Below the pieces are notes generated by a model. That model searched no databases. It saw only the letters and a program-made list of their open reading frames with translations, and was not told the origin of the DNA. This document shows, piece by piece, positions 251-5,140 of a stretch of 44,887 nucleotides of DNA. The first letter of the stretch is position 1. Each line of letters opens with the position of its first letter. The stretch is taken from positions 1 through 44,887 of the forward strand of contig WFWT01000009.1 of the NCBI GenBank assembly GCA_015490995.1, read 5' to 3'. Made by a program: the position numbers and the translations under genes. Source of the stretch: Anaerolineae bacterium (GTDB lineage Bacteria; Chloroflexota; Anaerolineae; JAADDB01).

Positions 251-272
251 GTGAACCGGGCGATCGGTTCAC
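251..272 (-). terminator. Hairpin overlapping the stop codon of the TPK-like gene
   Basis: GTGAACCG (251-258) and CGGTTCAC (265-272) form a perfect 8-bp stem with a 6-nt loop. The stem includes the TGA stop at 269-271. There is no U-tract on the minus strand, so it may end transcription weakly or protect the 3' end of the mutase operon mRNA. Confidence 0.4.
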
Positions 273-964
273 CTTGCGTCCGGGGGTTGGACGGATGCTT
301 GGCGTGTGTGAGAGACCAACAGACAACCGGCCCGAATCCACACCTGTGCCGTAGTCGCTACCAGCTGAACCTGCAGGGGCTGGCCAAATTGAAGGGTATG
401 CCCTTGGTATGAAGGATCCAGGCCTCGCGTGGTAACCTCTGTGACCGTTGGAGAAAGGGGAACAAGCATCACCGTCTCGCCGAGGTGTCCTTGAATGTGT
501 GCGGCTTCGCCATGGCGAAGGATGTACCCTCGCTCACAGCCATGTACAACGGTGAGCCGGGCTGCACCCCACTCTGGCCGAGCCAGCAAGGAAAGATAAG
601 CAACCGTTTGGGCCAGCCCTTCCTCTCCGATGCCCAAGATCCAGATATCCCGCGCGCCGGTAGTGATCGCGTAGTTGAGACCCTGGCTCAGGGCCTCCCA
701 CGGGGCCATGGACACCCCGGACAGAAAGCGTACCCCCAAAGCACGCAAGCGTGCCCGTACCGCCGGTTCACACGCGGTGGGTGGACCGCACACCGCTTCA
801 GGGGCAAGTTCGTTGGTCAACAGGTAAGGTATCACCTCCGGAACCCCGATCACGCGACGCACTTGCAACTGAGGCCAATCTTGGGACAGCCAACGGGGTA
901 GAGCGGGGCCGAACAACGCGGCCTGGTAAGGCACCGGAGGCCCTTGTCCTTCCCCTCCGGACAT
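269..964 (-). CDS. Thiamine pyrophosphokinase-like protein lacking catalytic motifs
   Basis: This 231-residue protein starts with ATG at 964 behind GAGGGGAAG. The frame is open further upstream, but that part overlaps meaB and is rejected. From about residue 95 it reads like thiamine pyrophosphokinase (TPK): a helix of the ALERGA type (YAITTGA), a WILG strand, then SLLARP. The C-terminal beta-sandwich pattern LVPLSP-x-VT-x-VTT-x-GL is near residue 165, followed by the final LLVSHT strand. The acidic and Gly motifs that bind ATP, Mg and thiamine in active TPK are absent: ADGG reads GVPE (41-43 region), GDxDS reads CGPPTA, KDxTD reads SMAPW, and GGRxDH reads GEEGLAQ. It is the last gene of the mutase/meaB operon, 17 bp after meaB. 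I infer a TPK-fold pseudoenzyme. A divergent, still active enzyme is less likely. Its role is unknown. Confidence 0.7.
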   Translation of the reverse strand: MSGGEGQGPPVPYQAALFGPALPRWLSQDWPQLQVRRVIGVPEVIPYLLTNELAPEAVCGPPTACEPAVRARLRALGVRFLSGVSMAPWEALSQGLNYAITTGARDIWILGIGEEGLAQTVAYLSLLARPEWGAARLTVVHGCERGYILRHGEAAHIQGHLGETVMLVPLSPTVTEVTTRGLDPSYQGHTLQFGQPLQVQLVATTAQVWIRAGCLLVSHTRQASVQPPDAR

Positions 965-981
965 TGTCTTCCCCTCGTTGT

Positions 982-2007
982 TTAACGGGTAACCGGTTGG
1001 GTCTCTGCTCGCGCGATGAGCTGCTGTGCGGCCGTGTACGGGTCCACCGAGCGGGACGTTACCTGTTGGATAACCTCGTCCAGGCTGGAAGGGGGCAAAC
1101 GCTCCATCAATCGGGATAGGAGGGCATCTTGCAAGATACGATAAAGTTCCCGCCGGATGCGGATTTCCTCCCGACGTTGGCCCTCGTGGGTGGTGCGCAG
1201 GTGTTCCCGGTGCTGTTCCACGGCGTCCACCACGGCGTCCACCCCTTCCCCGCGCGTGGCCACCGTCTTGAGAATGGGGGGCGTCCACGCCCTGTCGGGC
1301 GCAGGCGCTTCCTCGTGGACGGTCATGGTGCGACCGTGGTGTTGGACACGACGAGGGCCCAGGCCCAACATCGTCTGAAGGGCCAGGAAGGTGCGGTCCG
1401 CGCCCTCCCGATCTGCCTTGTTCACGACGAAAATGTCGGCGATTTCCAGGACACCCGCTTTGATGGCCTGGACGTCATCGCCCAGGCCGGGGGCTTCCAC
1501 CACAATAACGGTGTGGGCCGAGGCCGCGATGTCTACCTCGGCCTGGCCTACTCCCACTGTCTCGATGAGAATGCGCTCATATCCCATAGCATCCAGGATC
1601 AAGACCACATCGTCGGTTGCATGGGCCAGTCCCCCCAGGCTGCCGCGCGTGGCCATGCTGCGGATAAACACCCCGGGATCACCCACCAGGTCGCGCATGC
1701 GCACCCTATCGCCCAGCAGTGCCCCTCCGGAGAAGGGACTGGTGGGATCAATGGCGATAATGCCCACCCGGTGCCCGCGTTGCCGGTACACGCGGGCCAT
1801 AGCGTTGACCAAGGTGGACTTGCCGGTGCCGGGCGCGCCGGTGATCCCTACAATGTGTGCCCGGCCGGTATGAGGGAACAGACGTTCCACCACTTGTCGG
1901 GCCTGTGTCCCATCGTTTTCCACCACAGAAATCAACCGGGCCAAGGCGCGCATGTCCCCCTCTCGGGCCAGGGAGATAAGTGTATCCACGGCATCGGGTA
2001 AGTGCAT
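982..2007 (-). CDS. meaB: MeaB/ArgK-type GTPase, methylmalonyl-CoA mutase chaperone
   Basis: This G3E-family GTPase (341 residues, normal length) loads adenosylcobalamin into methylmalonyl-CoA mutase and protects the enzyme from inactivation. The P-loop GAPGTGKST is at residues 57-65. The family signatures DPTSPFSGGALLGDR, SMATRGSLGG and ETVGVGQAE follow, and NKAD gives guanine specificity. The C-terminal helical part carries the dimerisation region. It lies 27 bp downstream of the small B12 subunit in the same operon, which strongly supports the assignment. The cytoplasmic role is known from the family. Nothing unusual is seen in the sequence. Confidence 0.95.
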   Translation of the reverse strand: MHLPDAVDTLISLAREGDMRALARLISVVENDGTQARQVVERLFPHTGRAHIVGITGAPGTGKSTLVNAMARVYRQRGHRVGIIAIDPTSPFSGGALLGDRVRMRDLVGDPGVFIRSMATRGSLGGLAHATDDVVLILDAMGYERILIETVGVGQAEVDIAASAHTVIVVEAPGLGDDVQAIKAGVLEIADIFVVNKADREGADRTFLALQTMLGLGPRRVQHHGRTMTVHEEAPAPDRAWTPPILKTVATRGEGVDAVVDAVEQHREHLRTTHEGQRREEIRIRRELYRILQDALLSRLMERLPPSSLDEVIQQVTSRSVDPYTAAQQLIARAETQPVTR

Positions 2008-2034: not shown

Positions 2035-2466
2035 TCAGGATTGCGCCGCGGCCATCGCGGGCATGGTTTCCAATCCCAGTTCCCGGCAGATAAAATCGAT
2101 GATGTCTTGGGTCAACGTCCCCGGACCAAACACCCCTTTTACCCCTAACGCCTTCAACTTGGGGACATCCTCATCCGGAATAATGCCCCCTACCAGGACC
2201 AGCACATCGTCCATGCCCCGCTCTTTCAGCAGGCGCATGATCTTGGGCACCAGTGCCATGTGGGCGCCGGAAAGAATGGAAAGGCCGATGACGTCCACAT
2301 CCTCCTGGGCTGCTGCTTCCACAATCGCTTCAGGCGTCTGGCGAATACCGGTGTAAATAACTTCAAACCCGGCATCACGTAACGCCCGCGCGACCACCTT
2401 TGCCCCGCGGTCATGGCCGTCCAATCCCGGCTTAGCTACCAGCACCCGAATCTTTCGGTTGGCCAT
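2035..2466 (-). CDS. Methylmalonyl-CoA mutase, cobalamin-binding small subunit
   Basis: This 143-residue stand-alone B12-binding domain is the partner of the large subunit encoded upstream. The base-off cobalamin motif D-x-H-x-x-G is present as DGHDRG (Asp16, His18, Gly21). It is followed by the GLSILSG loop and the GGIIP segment that line the nucleotide tail. I chose ATG 2466 because GGGGGAAA lies just upstream and the protein then begins directly at the domain. Upstream in-frame ATGs lack a ribosome site. With the large subunit it converts (R)-methylmalonyl-CoA to succinyl-CoA in propionate, odd-chain and branched amino acid metabolism. Confidence 0.94.
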
Positions 2467-2584
2467 GGTGGTTTCCCCCATTTTTGGTGACATTCTTTTA
2501 GCAGGGACTTTTACGCCGTCTCGTTCCCCCCAACCTGACCCGACGCGCGCGGTCACAGATATCGGATGGCCCAGGTACACCGGG

Positions 2585-4264
2585 TTAGAACCATGCCGGT
2601 TCTTCCCATTCCCCAAATTCCTCCCGTAAGACCCCCATGATCTCCCCCAGGGTAGCATAGGCGGCCACCGCATCCAGGATAGGATACATCAGGTTCGTGC
2701 CGTTACGCGCCGCGCGGCGCACTTCCCGCAATGCCTTTAACACCTCGCGGTTGTCACGGGTGCGACGCACTTCCCGCAAGCGGGCCACCTGTCGCTCGTA
2801 CCCCTGGGGATCCATCTCCAACAGGGGAATTTCCATAGGCGTGTCTTCGACGTACTCATTAACCCCAACAATGATACGACGTTTGGCGTCCACCTCCATC
2901 TGATATTGGAAAGCGGCTTCCGCGATTTCTTGCTGGAAGAACCCCTTCTCGATGGCCGGAATGACACCGCCCAAGGCGTCAATTTTGCGGAAGTAATCAT
3001 ACGCCTGGGATTCCATAGTGTTGGTGAGCGACTCCACGTAGAAGGAACCACCCAATGGGTCAATGGTGTTGGTCACTCCGGTTTCGTGGGCGATGATCTG
3101 CTGGGTGCGCAGAGCGATGCGAACGGCCAACTCGGAAGGCAGGGCCAGCGCCTCGTCCATAGAGTTTGTGTGCAAGCTTTGAGCCCCACCCAGCACCGCG
3201 GCTAATGCCTGGATGGCCACCCGGACAACGTTGTTCTCAGGTTGTTGCGCCGTCAGAGTACATCCGGCCGTCTGCGCGTGGAAACGCAGGGTCCAGGAAC
3301 GGGGATTTTTCGCGCCGTATTTTTCCCGCATTTCGCGCGCCCAGATACGCCGCGCCGCCCGGAATTTGGCGATCTCTTCGAAGAAGTCGTTGTGCACGTT
3401 AAAGAAGAACGACAATCTAGGCGCGAAGCTGTCGATGTCGAGCCCGCGTTCCAACGCGGCTTCCACATACGTGAACCCATCCGCCAGAGTGAACGCGAGC
3501 TCCTGGACGGCAGTGGAACCGGCCTCCCGAATGTGGTACCCCGAAATACTGATGGGATGCCATCGCGGCATCTCGTTGGCCGCGAATTCGATCGTATCGA
3601 CCACCAGACGCATGGACGGCTCAGGAGGAAAGATGTACTCCTTCTGGGCAATGTACTCTTTGAGGATATCGTTTTGGATGGTCCCTCCCAACTGACGACG
3701 GGGGATGCCCCGTTTCTCCGCGGCGATAATGTACATGGCCCAGATAACCGCAGCGGGGGAGTTGATGGTCATGGAGGTTGTGATCTTGTCTAGGGGAATA
3801 CCGTCCAGGAGAATTTCCATATCCCGCAAGGACGAGACGGCTACACCACACTTGCCAAACTCACCTTCCGCTTCCGGCGCGTCCGTGTCATAGCCGTACA
3901 AGGTGGGGAGGTCAAAGGCAATGGAAAGCCCCGTTTCCCCTTCGGCCAGCAGGTACTTGAAACGCCGGTTGGTCTCCTCCGCGGTGCCAAAGCCGGCAAA
4001 CATGCGCATGGTCCACAGACGGCCTCGGTACATGGTCGGGTAAGGTCCCCGGGTAAAGGGGTACTCTCCGGGCATGCCCAGGTCACGCAGGTAGTCCATA
4101 TCGGCCACGTCATCGGGGGTGTATAGTCGCCGGATGGGTTGACCGGAGACAGTGGTGAAGGTTTCGTACCGTTCCGGAAAGCGGGCCAGGGCCTGCTGGA
4201 CGGTGGTTTCCTCCCAACGTTCCTTAGCCTCGCGGACGCGGGTGACCTCTTCCTTATCATACAT
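2585..4264 (-). CDS. Methylmalonyl-CoA mutase, large (catalytic) subunit
   Basis: This 559-residue TIM-barrel subunit binds methylmalonyl-CoA and carries out the radical carbon-skeleton rearrangement. Family signatures seen include [54 protein letters not shown] and the Arg/His-rich [19 protein letters not shown] segment. The C-terminus ends after the barrel, as expected when the B12 domain is a separate gene. ATG 4264 is chosen because GGAGGTGA lies 6 nt upstream. The longer open frame reads through the promoter at 4332-4360. It is first in the operon, 118 bp before the small subunit. The methylmalonyl rather than isobutyryl or ethylmalonyl specificity is inferred from the meaB linkage. Confidence 0.93.
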
Positions 4265-4387: not shown

Positions 4388-5140
4388 TTAGGGCCATATC
4401 TCCCAGCGGTAACGTTGACCATCGGTTACAATGTGCAGCCCCTGCTCAGGGGCCATGAAGAAACGGGTACGTGGAGCGGCGAGAATTTGGTGGGGGATGG
4501 CTGTCTTGCCCGGAGGCCAGGCCTGGCGGGTAACCACCAGGGGCGGTAAAGGGGGTGGGTTACCTGAGGGCAGGACACCCACAACCCACAGAGTGGCCGG
4601 GGGTAGAGCGACCGTCTCGCTCGTGTGGGGTGCGTATATTAGGCGAAATCGGCCTATTTGCACCTCTAACTGAAAGGGCGCGGTGCCCAGGACGCGCACC
4701 CGCATATCGCGTGCGTCCCACACACGGCCCACGGTCCAGGGAACGGGAACCTGTACGCGACCACGCCAGGCCTCCAAAGCGGGGAAGCGCTCTGTGTCCT
4801 CAGGGTACCAGCCGGTATGGGCAGGGTACACCGCGAGGACCGCAGCCTGAGCAGCTACCGCAGTTGCCCGCGCCTCGCTCAGCACGACCAAGTCCAGGGT
4901 ACGCTGCCAGAAGGGTATGGTCTGTCCCAGCAGGGCCCGAGTGTAAACCGCGTCCATCCCCCCGTCGAGGAGCATCAACCGCCCGCGGGACGTCATCACC
5001 AGTAAGCCGTCACCGCGAGGAAAGAGCCACAGGTGGACCTGGCCACGGGGCCCTTGGCGGCTCAGCAGAAGGGCCAGCCCGTTCAGAACAACCAGGGTGA
5101 TCAACACCCACCGTCGCCATCGCGGGGCCAGACCCTGCAT
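4388..5140 (-). CDS. ComEC-C-like metallo-beta-lactamase-fold protein without metal ligands
   Basis: This 250-residue protein starts with ATG 5140 after GGGAGGGGG. One N-terminal membrane anchor is at residues 11-27. The rest follows the beta-lactamase-fold domain found at the C-terminus of ComEC/Rec2: a GD-x-LLV strand (43-49), MLLDGG (56-61), then IPFWQRTLDLVVL (75-87). In active relatives the next residues are THPHADH, which bind zinc. Here they read SEARATAV (88-95), with no histidine or aspartate. Later segments keep the ATLWVVGVLPSG and PLVVTRQAW pattern of the fold. I infer an anchored, probably extracytoplasmic domain that no longer hydrolyses anything. It is last in a likely operon with the PII/CBS gene and permease, 45 bp after the permease. 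Confidence 0.6.
   Translation of the reverse strand: MQGLAPRWRRWVLITLVVLNGLALLLSRQGPRGQVHLWLFPRGDGLLVMTSRGRLMLLDGGMDAVYTRALLGQTIPFWQRTLDLVVLSEARATAVAAQAAVLAVYPAHTGWYPEDTERFPALEAWRGRVQVPVPWTVGRVWDARDMRVRVLGTAPFQLEVQIGRFRLIYAPHTSETVALPPATLWVVGVLPSGNPPPLPPLVVTRQAWPPGKTAIPHQILAAPRTRFFMAPEQGLHIVTDGQRYRWEIWP

Follow-up and report, generated by a model that had tools for sequence, protein, structure and literature searches.

In the loading of methylmalonyl-CoA mutase with its cofactor, the usual partner of the chaperone MeaB is an adenosyltransferase of the MMAB/PduO type (PF01923). Human MMAA and bacterial MeaB gate the transfer of AdoCbl between the adenosyltransferase and the mutase (PMC10356863). 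Thiamine pyrophosphokinases (TPKs) are dimers that require four Mg-binding Asp residues and a Lys for catalysis and bind thiamine through an aromatic residue together with a Ser-Asn pair (PMC2515308). A TPK-like domain also occurs in the regulator SteA (PMC12977500), which has in addition an N-terminal domain, a TM helix and, at the nucleotide site, a conserved pocket. The literature search brought up no paper that links a TPK with the mutase.

The window, i.e., the whole stretch of 44,887 nucleotides analysed here, comes from an Anaerolineae genome (G000) and contains a mutase operon in the order mutA-mutB-meaB, with the gene for a TPK-fold pseudoenzyme as its last member, all on the minus strand. 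The features of this region were as follows.

269..964, minus strand: TPK-fold pseudoenzyme gene (231 aa), from its open reading frame and translation, TPK homology and motif losses
971..976, minus strand: Shine-Dalgarno-like site GAGGGG, 6 nt before the pseudoenzyme ATG, from direct reading of the sequence
982..2007, minus strand: meaB, G-protein chaperone of methylmalonyl-CoA mutase (TIGR00750, 368 bits against a cut-off of 241; PF03308)
2035..2493, minus strand: mutB, B12-binding small mutase subunit (TIGR00640, 4.7e-56; PF02310)
2585..4264, minus strand: mutA, catalytic mutase subunit (PF01642, 4e-230)
4388..5140, minus strand: ComEC-C-terminal-like protein gene, a candidate member of the same functional unit, from tblastn and a search of the class

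The pseudoenzyme gene was read from an ATG at 964 to a stop codon at 271-269 (231 codons, minus strand) and starts 17 nt after the end of meaB. Thus, the limits of 269-964 and the 17-bp distance from meaB given in the first-pass annotation were correct, the strand being minus, and its assignment of the gene to the mutase operon agreed with matches of the upstream, co-directional meaB, mutB and mutA to curated families. The gene after that of the pseudoenzyme (approximately 171-1, minus strand) resembles that of a lipoprotein.

Family matches of the window protein as a single sequence were weak and were to TPK only, with a TIGR01378 (TPK) score of 22.8 bits (5e-5) that fell below the cut-off of 76.4 and a PF04265 match of 15 bits. 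Corresponding TIGR01378 scores were 38-58 bits (6e-16, 8.5e-10 and 1e-9) for its three orthologues and 171-178 bits for canonical TPKs from the same family of genomes. Comparison of the four-member family with Anaerolineae TPKs by hhalign gave a probability of 100 and E=7.6e-43 over 211 columns, and a four-sequence profile searched against the PDB matched TPK 3l8m at 1.5e-8. An AlphaFold model of the window protein built from the four sequences (pLDDT 80, pTM 0.76) had TPKs as its 28 best Foldseek matches in the PDB (best TMq 0.71), followed by SteA (9hmz) as the next plausible fold match after the true TPKs. Elements of the TPK fold cover residues 13-220 of 231 in this model, the remainder being low-confidence termini. 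The window protein is a genuine TPK homologue, beyond chance, and the TPK fold that had been proposed from its sequence was borne out by both the profile comparison and the structure prediction.

The catalytic Asp and Lys residues described in PMC2515308 were mapped, by our own assignment, to the bacterial motifs ADGG, GDxDS and KDxTD, and alignment columns were compared with those of canonical TPKs from the class (about 47 sequences), in which the catalytic columns were universal or nearly so. At canonical D42 (ADGG), D61 and D63 (GDxDS), K87 and D91 (KDxTD) and R116 and D118 (GGRxDH/Q), the residues of the window protein were P, P, T, A, A, G and A, respectively, in agreement with the absence of ADGG, GDxDS, KDxTD and GGRxDH that had been noted for it before. 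In the same columns, the four orthologues had PASA at D42, PPPP at D61, TTDD at D63, AHTA at K87, AAAS at D91, GSPT at R116 and AAQA at D118. Thus, Asp61 of GDxDS, universal in canonical TPKs, is an invariant Pro and none of the old ATP/Mg ligands is conserved across all four proteins. The thiamine site is similarly altered, the stacking aromatic residue being replaced by an invariant Pro184 and the SN motif being deleted in all four orthologues. When motif patterns were audited in 75 TPK-like entries of the class, which represent about 65 distinct genes, all five motifs were missing from the four mutase-linked proteins and from none of the other ~61 TPK genes. The motif loss first seen in the window protein therefore extends to its orthologues, with the exception of D63, the second Asp of GDxDS and one of the four Mg-binding Asp residues, which survives in the pair of proteins from genus g2 only. 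Judged by these residues, the pseudoenzyme is presumably devoid of TPK activity. With TPKs (TIGR01378; PF04263 plus PF04265) it shares the two-domain fold over its full length and a demonstrable homology; it differs from them in the five missing motifs and the change of the stacking aromatic to Pro, in its score under the family cut-off and in the place of its gene, an operon that serves a B12 enzyme and is not under TPP control. It is a member of the TPK superfamily by fold and descent and, by the features tested, no TPK enzyme.

Among six genomes of the order, the pseudoenzyme was carried by the two genomes of genus g1 and the two of genus g2, all from one family, and in each of these carriers (G000, G001, G002 and G005) the gene lies directly behind meaB, with spacings of 17, -4, -17 and 3 nt, respectively. 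Order-mate G004 has mutB-meaB without the pseudoenzyme gene, and meaB was not found in order-mate G003. A mutase-linked pseudoenzyme was not seen in any other family sampled. At the threshold used, two TPK-family matches per genome were noted only in G001, G002 and G005 among 199 genomes of the class, with no further genome in this set showing a second TPK-like copy. Genome contigs yielded no related loci in a single-protein search and only the three carriers already found in a search with a four-row profile, while a plasmid collection and, in a search with the TPK alignment, viral contigs gave no match. Conservation beside mcm-meaB, raised in the first-pass annotation, was thus evident as an intact gene in four genomes but extended to two genera only, with G004 lacking the gene. 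In G002, the frame that follows the pseudoenzyme gene (L103, 6501-7730) resembles a 409-aa coiled-coil protein.

In the window, the gene upstream of mutA encodes a protein of 250 aa with similarity to part of the ~800-aa proteins of the class that we take, by recognition, to be ComEC-like. This gene precedes mutA in three carriers and lies on another contig in the fourth, G002, as found by tblastn and the class search; its relatives were located as follows.

G001, contig C258, 4293-5021, minus strand: ComEC-like gene
G005, contig C46, 1526-2272, plus strand: ComEC-like gene
G002, contig C154, 7641-8378, minus strand: ComEC-like gene

The protein encoded at 4388..5140 of the window had no Pfam match, its metal-binding motif appears to be lost and its predicted model (pLDDT 45) was uninformative. 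It may be another degenerate enzyme beside the mutase operon.

In a phylogenetic tree of the TPK family, the four pseudoenzymes formed one clade (100/99) that followed genus lines and joined the tree next to the canonical TPKs from g1 and g2, the exact attachment being less certain than the clade itself because the pseudoenzyme branch is long. These relationships are consistent with one duplication in a common ancestor. Canonical TPK genes were also noted about 9 kb (G034, L172) and about 4 kb (G027, L173) away from mcm genes in members of two other families, and such a neighbourhood may explain why a copy landed behind meaB. The earlier remark that a dead TPK beside a B12 enzyme has no obvious explanation is thereby softened, at least as to history: a duplication of TPK in a lineage that can have TPK and mcm genes close together is plausible. 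At both L172 and L173, the canonical TPK gene is followed by an apparent gene for an ABC substrate-binding protein.

Reading frames were intact in all four carriers, and identity between orthologues at codon positions 1, 2 and 3 was 49-57, 52-64 and 31-39%, respectively. Since positions 1 and 2 were more alike than position 3, the pseudoenzyme is under purifying selection. Its evolution was nevertheless about 2-4 times faster than that of canonical TPK (tip lengths of 0.9-1.6 as opposed to 0.2-0.6), and protein identity between carriers was 33-44% for the pseudoenzyme as opposed to 70-78% for MeaB. Faster evolution than that of MeaB speaks against a tight partner and leaves room for the explanation that the protein is a passenger, i.e., that a TPK duplicate landed behind meaB and persists there with some other function or in slow decay, with no link to the mutase. 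That explanation, which we consider rather unlikely though deserving of weight, would also account for the absence of the pseudoenzyme from most mcm loci and gains from the proximity of canonical TPK to mcm genes in G034 and G027. It fits poorly with intact frames and codon-position constraint in four genomes despite 33-44% protein identity, with starts close to or overlapping meaB in all four carriers, and with N97, T102, P61 and P184, which are invariant in the four orthologues, occur in 0% of canonical TPKs at these columns and point to a specific function.

The distribution of conserved positions along the protein differed from that in its parent family. Thus, pair identity in segments 36-66 and 112-129, which correspond to the old active site, was 31 and 39% as opposed to 69 and 80% in the canonical TPKs of the order, whereas pair identity in segments 88-111 and 130-160 was 67 and 54% compared with 64 and 47% in the same TPKs. 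Constraint has therefore shifted from the old active site to residues 88-111 and 130-160. The helix-strand segment 88-111 contains an invariant N, ITTGA and D, and polar residues newly invariant in the four orthologues include N97, T101, T102, D106, R129, E144 and E153. Although these residues could be taken as the makings of a working enzyme in which the TPK scaffold carries out a different chemistry, no conserved acidic or basic set is present at the old site, where D63 is retained in the g2 pair only, and we regard such an enzyme as very unlikely.

The same conservation pattern bears on the suggestion, made by analogy with SteA, that the TPK fold here binds a nucleotide or phosphonucleotide and reports to the mutase or to another target. 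In SteA, the pocket at the nucleotide site of the TPK fold is conserved, GDP or UDP stabilises the protein (PMC12977500), and the MeaB cycle runs on GTP/GDP (PMC10356863). In the pseudoenzyme, however, the old nucleotide/Mg segments are among the least conserved (31 and 39%), the opposite of the SteA pocket, and a ligand-binding regulator of this type seems unlikely. The likeness to SteA (NF040608), which functions in cell separation in Mycobacteriales, is one of kind, in that a TPK-like domain would serve regulation in both. Neither the window protein nor its orthologues matched NF040608; the window protein, a TPK duplicate of recent origin, has no extra domain or TM helix, and the neighbour of its gene is meaB rather than a gene for a SteB partner.

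Genes for thiamine metabolism were informative about roles tied to the parent enzyme. Canonical TPK is encoded elsewhere in three of the four carriers (G001, G002 and G005) and is preceded in each by a TPP riboswitch, whereas no TPP riboswitch was present at the mutase operon, and membership of that operon in the thiamine regulon was rejected on this ground. Canonical TPK was not found in G000 (a draft genome, 99% complete), and G000 was the only one of the six genomes of the order with a ThiL match above the cut-off. ThiL in G000 lies in what we recognise, from the translated reading frames, as a thiamine salvage cluster, presumably with an ECF transporter, ThiE, ThiM and TenA (G000:C128:8000-20500, L135). 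Plausibly, ThiL replaced TPK in G000 and the pseudoenzyme outlived that change. The presence of the pseudoenzyme in a genome with ThiL but without canonical TPK indicates that it is no TPK subunit. Thus, a heterodimer with canonical TPK, rejected since none was found in G000, and with it a regulatory subunit of that enzyme, is largely refuted, even though TPKs are dimeric and three of the four carriers have one. The sensing of thiamine, which had been offered as a possible function in the first-pass annotation, was not supported either: the stacking aromatic is an invariant Pro, SN is deleted and the operon is without a TPP riboswitch, so a role as thiamine sensor is unlikely. Taken together, a TPK subunit or a thiamine sensor is a highly improbable identity for the protein.

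Comparison with the adenosyltransferase gave a less direct result. None of the four carriers has a PduO-type adenosyltransferase and the two non-carriers in the order each have one, a contrast that represents one split in the tree. Replacement of the adenosyltransferase by the pseudoenzyme was weakened as an explanation by the absence of PduO from 21 of 46 MeaB-positive genomes outside the family and by the presence of CobA in three of the four carriers. Outside the family, each of the 25 PduO-positive genomes sampled also had MeaB. MMAB/PduO is an accessory of the MeaB-mutase system, the same role as that proposed here for the window protein, although the two are unrelated in sequence and the window protein has neither a PF01923 match nor a conserved ATP site. 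The more specific proposal that the pseudoenzyme is a TPK-derived, non-catalytic factor for loading or repair of mutase coenzyme B12, which partly substitutes for PduO/MMAB where PduO is absent and a CobA-type enzyme is present, is in our estimation quite doubtful.

The loss of catalytic residues from a gene that is nevertheless intact at the end of the mutase operon in two genera indicates that a TPK copy was probably recruited for a new, non-enzymatic job in this operon. Our preferred, and tentative, reading of that job is that the pseudoenzyme is a duplicated and neofunctionalised non-catalytic TPK that might serve as an accessory protein of the MeaB/mutase system. What points to the mutase is the position of the gene, in four sequences from two genera. 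According to this accessory-protein reading, a TPK gene would have been duplicated in the common ancestor of the two Anaerolineae genera, one copy remaining a TPK under a TPP riboswitch and the other coming to stand, in close coupling, at the end of the mutA-mutB-meaB operon. The operon copy would then have lost its Mg-ATP and thiamine sites, while purifying selection preserved it as a protein with both domains of the TPK fold but no TPK activity. Made together with MeaB, it may act on MeaB or the mutase, as a regulator or as a scaffold that binds proteins, and segments 88-111 and 130-160 would form the new binding surface. Gating of AdoCbl transfer by MeaB/MMAA means that such a partner would have an obvious place to act.

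The pseudoenzyme offers a recent and clear-cut example of an enzyme of vitamin-cofactor metabolism that has apparently become a non-enzyme. Because close relatives show the active parent as well as the dead copy and the ThiL route to TPP, the change is testable. In humans, the B12 trafficking pathway is disrupted in methylmalonic aciduria. If the pseudoenzyme does serve MeaB and the mutase, it would add a new component to B12 trafficking and would be, next to SteA, a further example of regulation by a protein with the TPK fold.
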